Below, one piece after another: positions 4,425-58,813 of a stretch of 64,000 nt of DNA. A model generated the notes under the pieces. It was not told the origin of the DNA. It searched no databases and was given only the letters and a program-made list of their open reading frames with translations. The position numbers were made by a program, and so were the translations under genes. Source of the DNA: an uncultured Pseudoflavonifractor sp. (lineage in GTDB: Bacteria; Bacillota; Clostridia; Oscillospirales; Oscillospiraceae); NCBI GenBank assembly GCA_947425785.1, contig CANEAY010000001.1, positions 1-64,000 on the forward strand, in the 5' to 3' direction. The first letter of the stretch is position 1. Every line of letters starts with the position of its first letter.

Positions 4425-5555
4425 TTACAGTACGAGCAGCTCGGTGCTGCAGGCGTTCATGCGCACGGAGCCGTTGTCGGTGACCAGGTAGGGGTCGCCC
4501 CAGAAAATGCTGTAATCCATGTCGCCCAGGACCATGGTGGGATGGAGCACAAAGTTCATGCCCTTTTGAATGACCAGCTCGCTCTCCAGAGAGCCCCGTC
4601 CCCCCTCGTCCAGATCCAGTCCGATGATGTGGCCAAAGGGCAGCTTGGGGATATATCCGTGCTCCTGGGTGAACGCCCACAGCGCCTTGAGGATATCCTC
4701 AAGCCTGGCCCCGGGCCTGAACATTTCAACGGCAAAGTCGATGGCTTTCAGCTGGAGGGTATGGGCCTTCTTCAGATCCTGGTTCAGCTCACCCACACAT
4801 ACGGTGCGGGCCAGCTGCGTCCAGTAGCCCTTGTATTTCGGCGTGATCTCCATGCCGATGCAGTCGCCGTTCTGTACGATGCGGTCGTCAGGCCAGCTGA
4901 AGGGCCGGATGCAGGGTAGCTTGTTGTCCGTATAGGAAAATACTCCGTTGGACATCAGCGTGAATGTCTCCTCCGCCCCCGCCTTTTTCATGGCGTAGTC
5001 CATCTCGGCGTGCAGGTCGCTCATGCGTACCCCGGGCTTTGCCATGGCGCACACCGCCTCATAGGCCGCGTCCGTCATCTTGGCGCATTCCCTGATGCAC
5101 TCGATCTCGTAGTCGCTGTGTACGCTGCGCAGCGCGAAGATCTCCTGAGTCACATCCACCAGCTCCGCATGGGGGAATTTCTCCCTGAGAGCCAGTTCCC
5201 AGTTGGCGGGGAGCATCTCCAAAGAGACCCCCAGCCTGCAGACCTTCTGCTCGGAGAGCACGGTAAGTACACTGCCCAGAATGTCGGGGCCCAGACGAAC
5301 ATCCTCAAAACCCTTGTTGTGGACGCCGTCCAGGTGAAGGATAGAACCGACACAGATGGCCATGGGTTTTTCGGGGCGGGCCACCAGCGCCTGCAGGTGA
5401 TAGTAGGTGCGGTGGTCGGAAAAGTACCGGAAACAGCCGTAGGCGAGGGGGCCGACGGCGCTGTTTCCGACAAGGGCGACCGCGTCAAGCTCCAGCTCGC
5501 CCATGATCCCTCCCAGCGCCGCTTGCCGCTGCCTCAGCTCTTTGACAATGTCCAT
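4425..5555 (-). CDS. M24 (pita-bread fold) protein lacking most metal ligands, copy A
   Basis: Paralogue of the next gene, 376 residues, with a creatinase-like N-terminal domain and an M24 C-terminal domain. The metal-ligand positions read E236, Q247, H309, H338 and G353, the same replacements as in the other copy, which shows they are conserved rather than random decay. The start at 5555 (ATGGAC) is preferred over earlier ATGs at 5612 and 5564: AAAGGATG lies 9 bases upstream, and the N-terminus then aligns residue for residue with the paralogue. It follows the IclR gene in the same operon. Two copies may form a heterodimer, since M24 proteins of this type often dimerise; that is inference. 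Confidence 0.8.
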   Translation of the reverse strand: MDIVKELRQRQAALGGIMGELELDAVALVGNSAVGPLAYGCFRYFSDHRTYYHLQALVARPEKPMAICVGSILHLDGVHNKGFEDVRLGPDILGSVLTVLSEQKVCRLGVSLEMLPANWELALREKFPHAELVDVTQEIFALRSVHSDYEIECIRECAKMTDAAYEAVCAMAKPGVRMSDLHAEMDYAMKKAGAEETFTLMSNGVFSYTDNKLPCIRPFSWPDDRIVQNGDCIGMEITPKYKGYWTQLARTVCVGELNQDLKKAHTLQLKAIDFAVEMFRPGARLEDILKALWAFTQEHGYIPKLPFGHIIGLDLDEGGRGSLESELVIQKGMNFVLHPTMVLGDMDYSIFWGDPYLVTDNGSVRMNACSTELLVL

Positions 5556-5608
5556 AAACTTCATCCTTTCTTTCTCTTGCATTTTTTGAGCACCGGGCCA
5601 GATGACCA

Positions 5609-6370
5609 TCAAAGGAAATTGTACTTCTGCAGAAGATCCTGAACGGACTGGATAAAACCGGGATTGTTGATCTCGGAGAACCGTGAGATCGCGATGGAAA
5701 AATTGGCGGCCAGATCGATCTGTTTGCCCTTCCTGTGCACCGGGATAGAGATCACGGCCAGATTATCCGTCAGCTCGGCATACATGGTGGCATATCCCCG
5801 CTCCCGGGTCTGCTCCAGCTCCTTCTTCAGCTCGTCTGCGTCCGTGATGGAATACTTGGTGTAGGGCAGCAGCGGATTGCGGGAGAGCCACTGCTCCAGC
5901 TCTTCCTCGGACAGGCAGGAGAGGAACAGCTTGCCCGCCGCAGTGCAGTGGCAGGGGTGCGCCGCCCCAGGGATGGCCAGCTTCGCGCGGAACCTCATCT
6001 CCTTTCCGGCGGAGATGAGGTTGACGCAGGAGTCCTCGCAAAACGCGGTCAGCGATGCGCCGCAGTCCGCGCCCAATTTGAGGATAAAGTAGTTGAGAAA
6101 GGGGAGCGCTTTCGCCACATAGGGGTCATTTTCCATGATCCTGCCGGACATGACATACATTTTGTAGGTGGCGCAGTAGTCTTTGTTCTCCCGCTGCACC
6201 ACATAGCCGGACTCCTTCAGTACGGTGAGGATACGGTGCGTGGTCGCCGGAGCAAGGCCCACACTCTGGGCGATCTCCTGCAAAGAAGAACTGCGGGGCG
6301 CTGCACTGATATACTCCAGCACATCGAGGGTCTTCTTTGTCAGATTGGTCGGGTTTTTGGCTGTATCCAA
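5609..6370 (-). CDS. IclR-family transcriptional regulator
   Basis: Likely controls the M24/TRAP operon that follows it on the same strand. The N-terminus (about 12-65) is an IclR winged helix-turn-helix (SLQEIAQSVGLAPATTHRIL); the C-terminal 180 residues are the IclR effector domain, with the CHCTAAGKLFLS and ERGYATMYAEL motifs. The frame opens at an ATG at 6454, but the TTG at 6370 is preceded by GGAGGG at 8 bases and the best promoter would start transcription near 6434, so TTG is chosen. The predicted product is 253 residues, the usual IclR length. A palindrome between promoter and start suggests autoregulation. Confidence 0.88.
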   Translation of the reverse strand: MDTAKNPTNLTKKTLDVLEYISAAPRSSSLQEIAQSVGLAPATTHRILTVLKESGYVVQRENKDYCATYKMYVMSGRIMENDPYVAKALPFLNYFILKLGADCGASLTAFCEDSCVNLISAGKEMRFRAKLAIPGAAHPCHCTAAGKLFLSCLSEEELEQWLSRNPLLPYTKYSITDADELKKELEQTRERGYATMYAELTDNLAVISIPVHRKGKQIDLAANFSIAISRFSEINNPGFIQSVQDLLQKYNFL

Positions 6371-56329: not shown

Positions 56330-57301
56330 ATGACAGAGCAGACCATTTCCATAGAGCGGCTGGAGGAGGCGGTGAACCTCTTCGGCTCCCTGGATGAAAA
56401 CGTGCGGCTGATGGAGAAGGAACTGGGCGTCTCGGTGGTGAACCGGGACGGCGAGCTGAAGATCTCCGGCGAGGACGCCGAGGCGGTGCTCCACGCGGTC
56501 CAGGCGGTGGAGGGCCTTTTGAAGGTCATCGGCCGGGGGGAGACCATCACCGAGCAGAACGTGCGCTACATCCTCAACCTGGTGAAGGCGGGCCACGCCG
56601 ACAAAATTGGCCAGCTGTCCAATGACGTGCTCTGCGTCACCGCCAAGGGCAAGCCCATCAAGTCCAAGACCCTGGGCCAGAAACGGTACGTGGAGGCCAT
56701 CCGCAAGAACCTGGTGACCCTGGGCATCGGCCCCGCCGGCACCGGCAAGACCTACCTGGCGGTGGCCGCCGCTGTGGCCGCCTTCCGGGCGGGGGAGGTC
56801 AACCGCATCATCCTCACCCGCCCCGCCGTGGAGGCGGGGGAGCGGCTGGGCTTCCTCCCCGGCGACCTCCAGAGCAAGGTTGACCCCTACCTGCGGCCCC
56901 TCTACGACGCCCTCTTTGAGATGCTTGGCCCCGAGACCTACCAGAAGTATGTGGAGCGGGGCAACATCGAGGTGGCCCCCCTGGCCTATATGCGGGGCCG
57001 CACCCTGGACGACTCCTTCATCATCCTGGACGAGGCCCAGAATACCTCCCGGGAGCAGATGAAGATGTTCCTCACCCGGATGGGCTTCGGCTCCAAGATC
57101 GTCATCACCGGCGACGTGACCCAGATCGACCTTCCCACCGACACCGTCAGCGGCCTGAAGGAGGCCATGCGGGTGCTCAAGGGGGTGGAGGACATCGCCA
57201 TCTGCACCCTCACCGGGGCCGACGTAGTGCGCCACGTCATCGTCCAGCGCATCATCAAGGCTTACGAACAGGACGAGGAGCGCCGGAAGGCCAAGCGGTG
57301 A
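56330..57301 (+). CDS. phoH: PhoH family ATPase
   Basis: A 323-residue PhoH-like P-loop protein, possibly an RNA-acting ATPase. Walker A is [13 protein letters not shown] and Walker [14 protein letters not shown]; the N-terminal 60 residues form a KH-like segment ([20 protein letters not shown]). In most Firmicutes phoH is followed directly by ybeY. Here a transposase gene begins 4 bases after its stop, and ybeY is displaced by 1.1 kb. Confidence 0.93.
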
Positions 57302-57305
57302 GAAG

Positions 57306-57848
57306 ATGGATGAGGAGAGAGCGGAGAGAAAACTGCTGCGATTGAAGGGCTATGATTACAGCGGGGCGGGGTACTATTTTATCACCATATGCACCCAGAA
57401 CCGCATCCCACTATTTTGGGATGTGAGGCGGGCGGGTTTGGAACCCGCCCCTACAAATGCTTTAAATACTTTTGGGGACATCGCCAAACAAACATGGCTG
57501 GAATTACCCCTCCATACCAACGGGATCCGTGTTGATAAATTTGTGGTGATGCCAAACCATTTTCACGGTATTGTGGTGATTGAAAATGGTTGCGTAGGGG
57601 CGGGTTCTAAACCCGCCCGAACACCAGTCACAGAAGCAATACGCCAATTTAAAACCTTCTCTGCTCGGAAAATCAATCAAATGCGGGGGACACCCGGTAA
57701 ACCCGTTTGGCAACGTGGCTTCTACGACCACATCATCCGCAGCGAACCGGACTACCTGCGTATCTGGAACTACATCGACACCAACCCTGCCAAATGGGCG
57801 GAAGATGAATATTATATCCCGCCATGCCCTGAAAGGGGACAGCCCTGA
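57306..57848 (+). CDS. REP-associated tyrosine transposase (RAYT, Y1 family)
   Basis: A 180-residue single-strand-type Y1 transposase related to IS200/IS605 TnpA. It opens with [20 protein letters not shown], contains the HUH-type metal motif [10 protein letters not shown], and ends with [19 protein letters not shown], which holds the candidate nucleophile tyrosine. RAYTs act on REP palindromes. Remarkably, two REP-like palindromes lie inside this frame and are translated as AGLEPAPTN and GAGSKPART. The start codon follows the phoH stop by 4 bases, so translation may be coupled. It splits the usual phoH-ybeY pair. Confidence 0.88.
57430..57454. repeat. REP-like palindrome inside the RAYT gene, copy 1
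   Basis: A 25-base element with 9 bp arms GGGCGGGTT and AACCCGCCC around TGG, followed by CTAC. It matches the reverse complement of the copy at 57594 at 24 of 25 positions. Confidence 0.8.
57594..57618. repeat. REP-like palindrome inside the RAYT gene, copy 2 (inverted)
   Basis: The inverse of the copy at 57430: GTAG, then GGGCGGGTT and AACCCGCCC arms around CTA. The two copies face each other across 139 bases and would let the gene transcript or single strand fold back on itself. Confidence 0.8.
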
Positions 57849-58021
57849 TCCCAACAGGCATGGGCCAGGTGGAGGCCAAGCTGGAGCCCCTGGTAGAAAG
57901 ACCACAGGCCGTGGGCCTGCACCGGGTCGCCAGCCATGTGCTCCGGCCAGAACTGGGGCGTGGGGGCGGGGACAAAATATCCGTACAGCTCGTCAATTAC
58001 ATCAGGGATGATTTCTTTCAC
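57812..58021 (-). CDS. Small protein divergent from the XRE-YbeY gene
   Basis: A 69-residue frame starting at GTG 58021 with GGAGG 8 bases upstream (MKEIIPDVIDELYGYFVP begins the product). It is rich in aromatic, His and Pro residues and has no known domain. A consensus minus-strand promoter lies 38 bases upstream, and an operator-like palindrome lies between, so it is very likely expressed and controlled by the XRE domain protein. The last 37 bases overlap the end of the RAYT gene, so the natural C-terminus may have been cut off by that insertion. Confidence 0.62.
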   Translation of the reverse strand: MKEIIPDVIDELYGYFVPAPTPQFWPEHMAGDPVQAHGLWSFYQGLQLGLHLAHACWDQGCPLSGHGGI

Positions 58022-58035
58022 AGGAAGCACCTCCA

Positions 58036-58073
58036 AACACGATAATATTATCGTGTTAATTATACACGATAAA
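58036..58073. promoter_or_regulatory. XRE-type operator: 22 bp palindrome plus third half-site
   Basis: AACACGATAAT at 58036-58046 is followed immediately by its exact reverse complement to 58057. A third half-site ACACGATAAA lies at 58064-58073. The palindrome covers the start region of the minus-strand promoter and the extra site lies in its spacer. Confidence 0.78.
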
Positions 58074-58087
58074 ACTATGCGTGTCAA
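58059..58087 (-). promoter_or_regulatory. Perfect consensus promoter of the small divergent gene
   Basis: On the minus strand TTGACA (58087-58082) and TATAAT (58064-58059) are exactly 17 bases apart, the full consensus at both boxes. Such promoters usually need a repressor, and the operator lies on top of it. Confidence 0.85.
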
Positions 58088-58105: not shown

Positions 58106-58813
58106 ATGATTTTTAATGAGAGACTGCGGGCGTTAAGAAAGGAAAAGGGCTGGACACAGCCTCAAACAGCGGAAAAATTGTCCATTGCCTATCGAAATTA
58201 TCAGCGCCTGGAGGCCGATGGGAATACCCCCAACTTTGCCAACCTGGTGCAGATCGCCGACCTGTTCGGCGTGTCTATGGACTATCTGGCGGGCCGGACA
58301 GACCGGCGGGAGGTCAACGGTTCGGCGGGGCATGATATCATCATCACCTCCGACCTGGCCGAGGATACCGCTGAGTTGGAGACTTTGCTCCGGAAGGTCA
58401 TCCCCGCCGCCCTGGAAGCCGAGGGGGTGGCCCTGCCCTGCGAGGTCAATGTGCTCCTCACCGGCAACGAGGGCATCCACGCCATCAACCTGGCCCAGCG
58501 GGAGGTGGATGCCCCCACCGACGTTTTGAGCTTCCCCATGCTGGAGCTTACGCCGGGGGACAAGCCCACCGAAGAGGACATGGAGCCCGGCTCCGGCCGG
58601 GTGCCCCTGGGGGACATGGTGCTGAACATCGACCGCATCCGCTCCCAGGGGGAGGAGTACGGCCACGGCTTCCGCCGGGAGGCGGCCTATCTGGCGGTAC
58701 ACTCCGTTTTACATCTGCTGGGCTACGACCACATGGACGAGGGGCCCATGAAAAAGCAGATGCGCTCGCGGGAGGAGGCCATCCTGGCCCAACTGGATAT
58801 TACAAGGGGATAA
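58106..58813 (+). CDS. ybeY: XRE helix-turn-helix regulator fused to YbeY endoribonuclease
   Basis: A 235-residue fusion. Residues 1-66 are an XRE/HTH_3 domain (RLRALRKEKGWTQPQTAEKL, LADLFGVSMDYLAGRTD-type ending). Residues 75-235 are a complete YbeY, the metal-dependent RNase for rRNA processing, with REVDAPTDVLSFPM and the zinc motif HSVLHLLGYDH. The frame is continuous: between the domains there is no ATG, GTG or TTG codon in frame until inside YbeY, so a separate YbeY start is not evident. AGAGGGGG precedes ATG 58106. YbeY normally follows phoH directly; here it follows the RAYT insertion. The fusion could couple YbeY levels to the XRE operator. Confidence 0.88.
   Translation: MIFNERLRALRKEKGWTQPQTAEKLSIAYRNYQRLEADGNTPNFANLVQIADLFGVSMDYLAGRTDRREVNGSAGHDIIITSDLAEDTAELETLLRKVIPAALEAEGVALPCEVNVLLTGNEGIHAINLAQREVDAPTDVLSFPMLELTPGDKPTEEDMEPGSGRVPLGDMVLNIDRIRSQGEEYGHGFRREAAYLAVHSVLHLLGYDHMDEGPMKKQMRSREEAILAQLDITRG

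Follow-up and report, generated by a model that had tools for sequence, protein, structure and literature searches.

A predicted XRE repressor domain fused in frame to the ribosome-maturation RNase YbeY in Pseudoflavonifractor, and the divergent small gene beside it

YbeY is among the most conserved bacterial RNases. At positions 58106–58813 (+) of the window, a stretch of 64,000 nucleotides from an uncultured Pseudoflavonifractor sp., a complete YbeY shares one reading frame with an XRE-type helix-turn-helix (HTH) domain. The locus raises the question of whether this xre-ybeY gene is real and, if so, how the RNase came to carry such a domain and what the domain does there. If the partner is a repressor that binds specific DNA sequences, a single polypeptide would link ribosome maturation with transcription.

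The gene starts with ATG and comprises 235 codons with zero internal stops, encoding the HTH (residues 1–71), a short linker (residues 72–75), and a complete YbeY (residues 76–235). In particular, Pfam HTH_3 matches residues 7–61 (2.6e-11; 43.8 bits, cut-off 23), Pfam YbeY (PF02130) matches residues 88–230 (1e-37; 129.3 bits, cut-off 25), and the protein matches NCBIfam TIGR00043, rRNA maturation RNase YbeY (3.4e-39; 133.8 bits, cut-off 45). The sequence-only reading had claimed an uninterrupted 235-codon HTH_3–YbeY frame containing the motif HSVLHLLGYDH; ORF reading, Pfam, and NCBIfam confirm this, and the motif is present. Residues H199, H203, and H209 (H-x3-H-x5-H), which we take to be the three-histidine metal motif of YbeY, and R132, presumably its conserved arginine, are invariant across a 17-row YbeY alignment. 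An AF2 model has a mean pLDDT of 87.6 and shows two folded parts, with a weak stretch at residues 71–73. The predicted protein could plausibly bind both DNA and RNA.

The fusion is present in several separately deposited genomes. A genome-contig scan, seeded with peptides of the window protein such that distant fusions may escape it, found 147 relatives; in seven of the 79 loci fetched from the best 80 of these (L009, L010, L048, L011, L016, L014, and L015), the XRE and YbeY frames are continuous. Two of the seven belong to Pseudoflavonifractor sp. An184 and P. capillosus strain An827, apparently cultured isolates. Within the genus, 15/16 genomes match the fusion protein (two of them only in part, at residues 128–234 and 171–234), and 4/16, the window's included, show the fusion; genus genomes G001, G006, and G012 have the same identities as L048, L009, and L010, with which they are apparently one and the same, so they add no cases. 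In the family sample, 365/400 genomes match at 1e-30, and among the matches listed only three start at residue 1: the window, G001, and G012, the last two both in the window's genus. In the class sample, matches at 1e-28 come from 89/196 genomes, and the window's own is the sole match to begin at residue 1. Four other matches among these 196 genomes start at query residues 42–51 but contain 1–3 stops, and were rejected as fusions outside the family. Chance or assembly error is very unlikely: seven relatives, deposited separately, have the frame open too, and with the window these make eight open frames, on which we rejected sequencing or assembly error as the cause. The fusion is thus real rather than an artefact, as first proposed, and common to several species rather than a private accident. 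Nor did the check for a second intact ybeY find one: in the window's own genome (1.96 Mb, 39 contigs, 93.4% complete), the window's match is the only one of 10 to cover YbeY, and among the other matches one HTH match extends to query residue 114.

The fused HTH corresponds to one half, the XRE, of a cassette of two genes, in which an XRE gene (~71 aa) is divergent from a gene of ~58 aa. In the window, the small gene lies at 57812–58021 (−), with a GTG start and 69 aa (81% to L010 by tblastn, alignment A1). It encodes 58–60 aa in the fused relatives, and the window copy exceeds the conserved 58 by 11 aa, which extend into the 3′ end of a neighbouring RAYT gene. The small gene adjoins the fused XRE, divergently, in 8/8 fused loci (the window plus seven) and has Ka lower than Ks in 21/21 pairs from seven sequences. 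Its product has no named family among the libraries searched. Specifically, neither NCBIfam nor Pfam gives a hit for the L010 protein, Pfam gives none for the L011 protein, and DUF6809 (PF20648) gives weak hits for 3/21 small proteins (best E 0.002, accepted score not reached) and no Pfam match for the window's small ORF. A structure model of modest confidence (pLDDT 73.9) consists of two helices. The small gene is present in 30/400 family genomes (12/106 genera) and in 2/394 genomes of the order sample, both in the window's family. A viral or plasmid origin was rejected: viral contigs gave 26 pattern matches with 0 confirmed, and none was confirmed in phages or plasmids. An XRE-like frame is divergent to the small gene in 28/30 fetched family loci (all except L152 and L153); the XRE criterion in this survey was permissive, and a check of four among the most distant XRE showed HTH_3. 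At L133:1680-2201, the small gene has two tandem XRE beside it, which makes L133 a second instance of a cassette with multiple XRE genes.

Comparison with relatives places the insertion between ybeY and phoH, its natural upstream partner, at 56330–57301 (+; Pfam PhoH 9.3e-97) in the window. Between phoH and the cassette lies a RAYT-like gene (REP-associated tyrosine transposase; 57306–57848, +), which matches NCBIfam REP_Tyr_transpos at 6e-20 (71.6 bits, under the cut-off of 80). REP-like palindromes (GGGCGGGTT..AACCCGCCC) lie inside this gene at 57430–57450 and 57598–57618, and similar peptides (19 residues) are present in the RAYT-like ORFs of L010 and L012. In relatives without the cassette, the phoH–ybeY gap is 38 nt (L013) or the stop and start overlap (L019, L023, L030, and L033). 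A second, unrelated N-terminal fusion joins a CTCGHCRNF protein in frame to the same YbeY codon (L012:4572-5483, L017:4572-5489, and L018:4548-5486). The N-terminal part of this protein has no Pfam hit, and its relatives are separate genes just upstream of ybeY, with a start codon before YbeY (for example L021, L024, and L027). In phoH and phoH+YbeY trees, XRE-fused and CTCGHCRNF (DUF)-fused rows interleave on well-supported branches, forcing at least two changes per label, which may be one gain plus one loss; the YbeY tree alone forces only one. The native overlap, the CTCGHCRNF fusions, and the interleaved trees together point to the phoH–ybeY gap as a site of gene insertion followed by coupling or fusion. 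The lability speaks against the fusion being indispensable as such, and the arrangements of the gap speak for an easy mechanical route to fusion. The sequence-only reading had a mobile XRE gene landing upstream of ybeY. The acquisition of an XRE between phoH and ybeY stands, given relatives without it, but the whole XRE/small-gene cassette landed; presence and absence, together with the HTH exchange described below, suggest mobility, and no mobility gene of the cassette was identified.

An intermediate is seen in L130, where XRE and ybeY are unfused and have a TAATG in common, the XRE ending GRTERREVNQ. This arrangement is likely the pre-fusion state. Similar overlaps of the XRE stop with the next gene's start are present in 6/26 unfused cassettes, L130 among them, and the XRE tail codons REV, often GGGAGGT, might act as the ribosome-binding site of the gene that follows.

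The reading that we favour, and hold to be fairly probable, is that the gene encodes one bifunctional protein, both YbeY and the repressor of the small gene, which arose by cassette insertion and then fusion. A cassette of an XRE repressor gene and a divergent gene of ~58 aa would have entered the gap between phoH and ybeY and so displaced their native stop/start coupling; the XRE would first have been coupled to ybeY through overlapping stop and start codons, as in L130; and loss of the XRE stop and the ybeY start would then have given a single protein. Its C-terminal part would be the cell's only YbeY, and its N-terminal HTH would still bind operators overlapping a strong leftward promoter and repress the small gene. 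Transcription of xre-ybeY would probably come by read-through from phoH and/or from a weak promoter that overlaps operator 1. Candidate steps are represented among the relatives (native phoH–ybeY overlap, inserted cassette, common stop/start, fusion, and HTH exchange), so that the formation of the fusion and a repressor function on a ribosome-assembly enzyme become directly testable.

The divergent region between the small gene and XRE (56–84 bp) contains the elements that such a repressor would use. In the window, a leftward promoter, directed towards the small gene, has a −35 element TTGACA at 58082–58087 (−) and a −10 element TATAAT at 58059–58064 (−), a 12/12 match to the sigma-70 consensus with a 17-nt spacer, which is a consensus match and not proof of function. 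Two candidate operators flank its −10 element: operator 1, a perfect 22-bp palindrome at 58036–58057 (AACACGATAATATTATCGTGTT), reached by 0/100 mononucleotide shuffles; and operator 2, an imperfect dyad at 58065–58083 (CACGATAAAACTATGCGTG) in the −35/−10 spacer, where relatives carry a sequence matched to HTH type. The operator-like element suspected beside the XRE is therefore present, as a 22-bp palindrome with a second dyad. A single perfect dyad is not above chance everywhere: in shuffles, which for dyads and promoters preserve base composition only and not dinucleotides, a perfect dyad of equal length occurs in >10% for 18/35 regions.

We tabulated 34 cassettes, 8 from fused loci and 26 unfused (L031 and L127–L151); L152 gave no XRE, and L153, with a mis-set intergenic stretch, was left out of the promoter, operator-type, and downstream-gene tables. 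The leftward match is 11–12/12 in 7/8 fused loci and 8/12 in L048, which has lost the leftward −10 element and part of the divergent region. L011 and L016 each have three consecutive XRE genes, of which the third is fused to YbeY. Here the region beside the small gene, before the first XRE, has no dyad or promoter match, and promoter and operator precede the third, fused XRE; for these two loci, the promoter and operator-type tables used the region before the third XRE, and the dyad tests and downstream-gene table used the region before the first. Similarity of the operator spacer correlates with similarity of the recognition helix across 33 cassettes (Mantel r 0.58, reached by 0/5000 permutations, shared ancestry uncorrected; L146, which has no anchor, left out) and over 27 dereplicated cassettes (r 0.54, reached by 0/5000 permutations, again uncorrected for shared ancestry). 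By eye, fused and unfused cassettes have operator types in common (L014 with L140/L142, L015 with L127, and the window with L128). Together, the correlation and the common types suggest that fusion has left the HTH able to recognise its former class of site.

Substitution patterns indicate that the HTH half is conserved. The window, L048, L010, and L009 form six pairs, and in 6/6 the HTH half has the lower Ka (0.03–0.08, versus 0.12–0.20 in YbeY); a Ks printed as inf is saturated, and the accompanying zero ratios were unused. Recent transfer within the genus was rejected as an explanation of the conserved HTH, pS being higher in the HTH half than in YbeY in 5/6 pairs (slightly lower in L048–L010). 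The HTH has also been exchanged at its conserved tail. Specifically, L011 and L014 have identical YbeY proteins (Ks 0.04) and HTH parts only 53% identical, and the DNA of the two aligns collinearly as far as the GRTD segment of L011 XRE 1 (92.7%) and again from that of L011 XRE 3 onward (97.6%). The tandem genes of L011 (two XRE at 4714-5225 and the fused XRE at 5289-6023) represent three HTH types.

These patterns bear on the strongest alternative, a neutral ratchet in which translation of ybeY is coupled to whatever precedes it, the stop/start is easily lost, and the HTH is tolerated baggage whose frame stays open only for the sake of ybeY's translation start. Fusion of the quite different CTCGHCRNF gene to the same YbeY codon, and the lability of fusion on the trees, are what such a ratchet would produce. 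Baggage should drift, however, and the lower Ka of the HTH in every pair and the persistence of type-matched operator sequences argue against it; we regard the ratchet as unlikely.

The genes that follow the cassette elsewhere suggest an extension of the bifunctional reading. Among the 26 unfused cassettes, 22 lie ≤1.2 kb before a radical-SAM, rbfA, era, or ybeY gene: the first recognised gene within 1.2 kb after the XRE is radical SAM in 12, rbfA in 8, era in 1, and ybeY in 1, with none in 4. The table rests on four query proteins and the first forward match, such that an intervening gene is possible, and each gene name was verified for a single example (Era from its GTPase and KH domains). 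In three of the eight rbfA cases, the gene is >600 nt from the XRE. In L141, L149, L150, and L151, the cassette is 22–80 nt upstream of rbfA, another 30S maturation gene; in L145–L148, rbfA is farther away, at 180–898 nt. The cassette might thus be a self-anchoring sentinel. A repressor coupled or fused to ribosome-maturation genes (ybeY, era, and rbfA) would not be losable, and its level would report the making of the factor; when translation of the host operon falls, the repressor would drop and the consensus promoter would fire the small gene, with HTH and operator types swapped at a GRTDxREVN tail. We consider this speculative and somewhat less credible than the neutral ratchet, as it draws on neighbour pattern and promoter logic. 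Against it, nearly half of the unfused cassettes (12/26) precede the radical SAM gene, for which we know of no tie to ribosomes, and a small number of old insertions, passed down within genera, may account for the neighbour pattern.

A further alternative is that internal initiation still yields a separate YbeY and that the fusion is an overlapping arrangement only. From residue 50 onward, the in-frame start codons in the window are GTG 56, ATG 58, TTG 91, and TTG 94; GTG 56 or ATG 58 could in principle start a YbeY of 178–180 aa. An in-frame GTG lies near the junction in L010 (GTG 74), L011, L014, L015, and L016, an ATG is also present inside the first YbeY strand in L011, L014, and L016, and in the CTCGHCRNF fusion of L017 a GTG immediately precedes the YbeY H codon. 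In the window, however, no ATG, GTG, or TTG lies between residues 58 and 91, so the earlier claim of a junction devoid of in-frame starts holds for that interval, with GTG 56 and ATG 58 preceding it; in L048 and L009, no start codon lies between residues 58 and 100, and a start at residue 56–58 would retain part of the HTH tail. We therefore judge internal initiation improbable and infer a full-length product.

That the cassette mainly places ybeY under a self-repressing rightward promoter, the sequence-only reading's own proposal, is very improbable: a weak 10/12 candidate (TTCACA-18-GATAAT, 58017–58046, +) has its −10 element inside operator 1, and 10/12 candidates occur in L014 and L015 too, but rightward matches of at least 10/12 occur in 5/34 cassettes, with none found in L010, versus leftward matches in 32/34 (shuffled mean 8.0). 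Since the strong promoter points towards the small gene and away from ybeY, dependence of ybeY on an XRE promoter is the weaker reading. As to the source of xre-ybeY transcripts, no rightward terminator-like site was found in the scanned stretch between phoH and ybeY in the window or L010, which is compatible with read-through from phoH without demonstrating it.

The bifunctional protein resembles several known systems in part. Type II toxin-antitoxin modules usually have toxin and antitoxin in one operon; unlike these, the small gene and XRE are divergent. Among solved HTH structures, the closest in sequence is the ICEBs1 Xre regulator (7t8i, 2.5e-8), and, as with mobile-element XRE repressors (ICEBs1 and RstR), dyads lie beside a divergent promoter; the match to the RstR model NF041951 (64.2 bits) falls below its cut-off of 80 and does not place the protein in RstR. 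Unlike those repressors, the HTH is fused to a housekeeping enzyme, the gene divergent from it encodes a 58-aa protein that matches no named family, and no integrase or phage gene was recognised nearby (ORFs by eye, some scanned). YbeY–Era fusion proteins, with YbeY N-terminal, occur in some Clostridia, Selenomonadales, and Thermoleophilum, according to a review (PMC10582724). As in the fusions described there, YbeY is joined in frame to a partner encoded in the phoH–ybeY–era neighbourhood; here, in contrast, YbeY is C-terminal and the partner is a predicted DNA-binding repressor instead of a ribosome-assembly factor. A literature search for YbeY fusions, domain architecture, Era, and XRE returned no report of an HTH–YbeY fusion, and no paper on DUF6809 was found. 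Genes of DUF6809 divergent to XRE, as in L002 of the window's own genome, have the same layout as the cassette, but the cassette proteins are shorter (58–62 aa versus an 85-position model) and give no accepted hit. The L002 pair (1507-2059, contig C4) comprises an XRE ending GRSDER and a divergent DUF6809-like gene (1e-5; 26.7 bits, just below the cut-off of 27).
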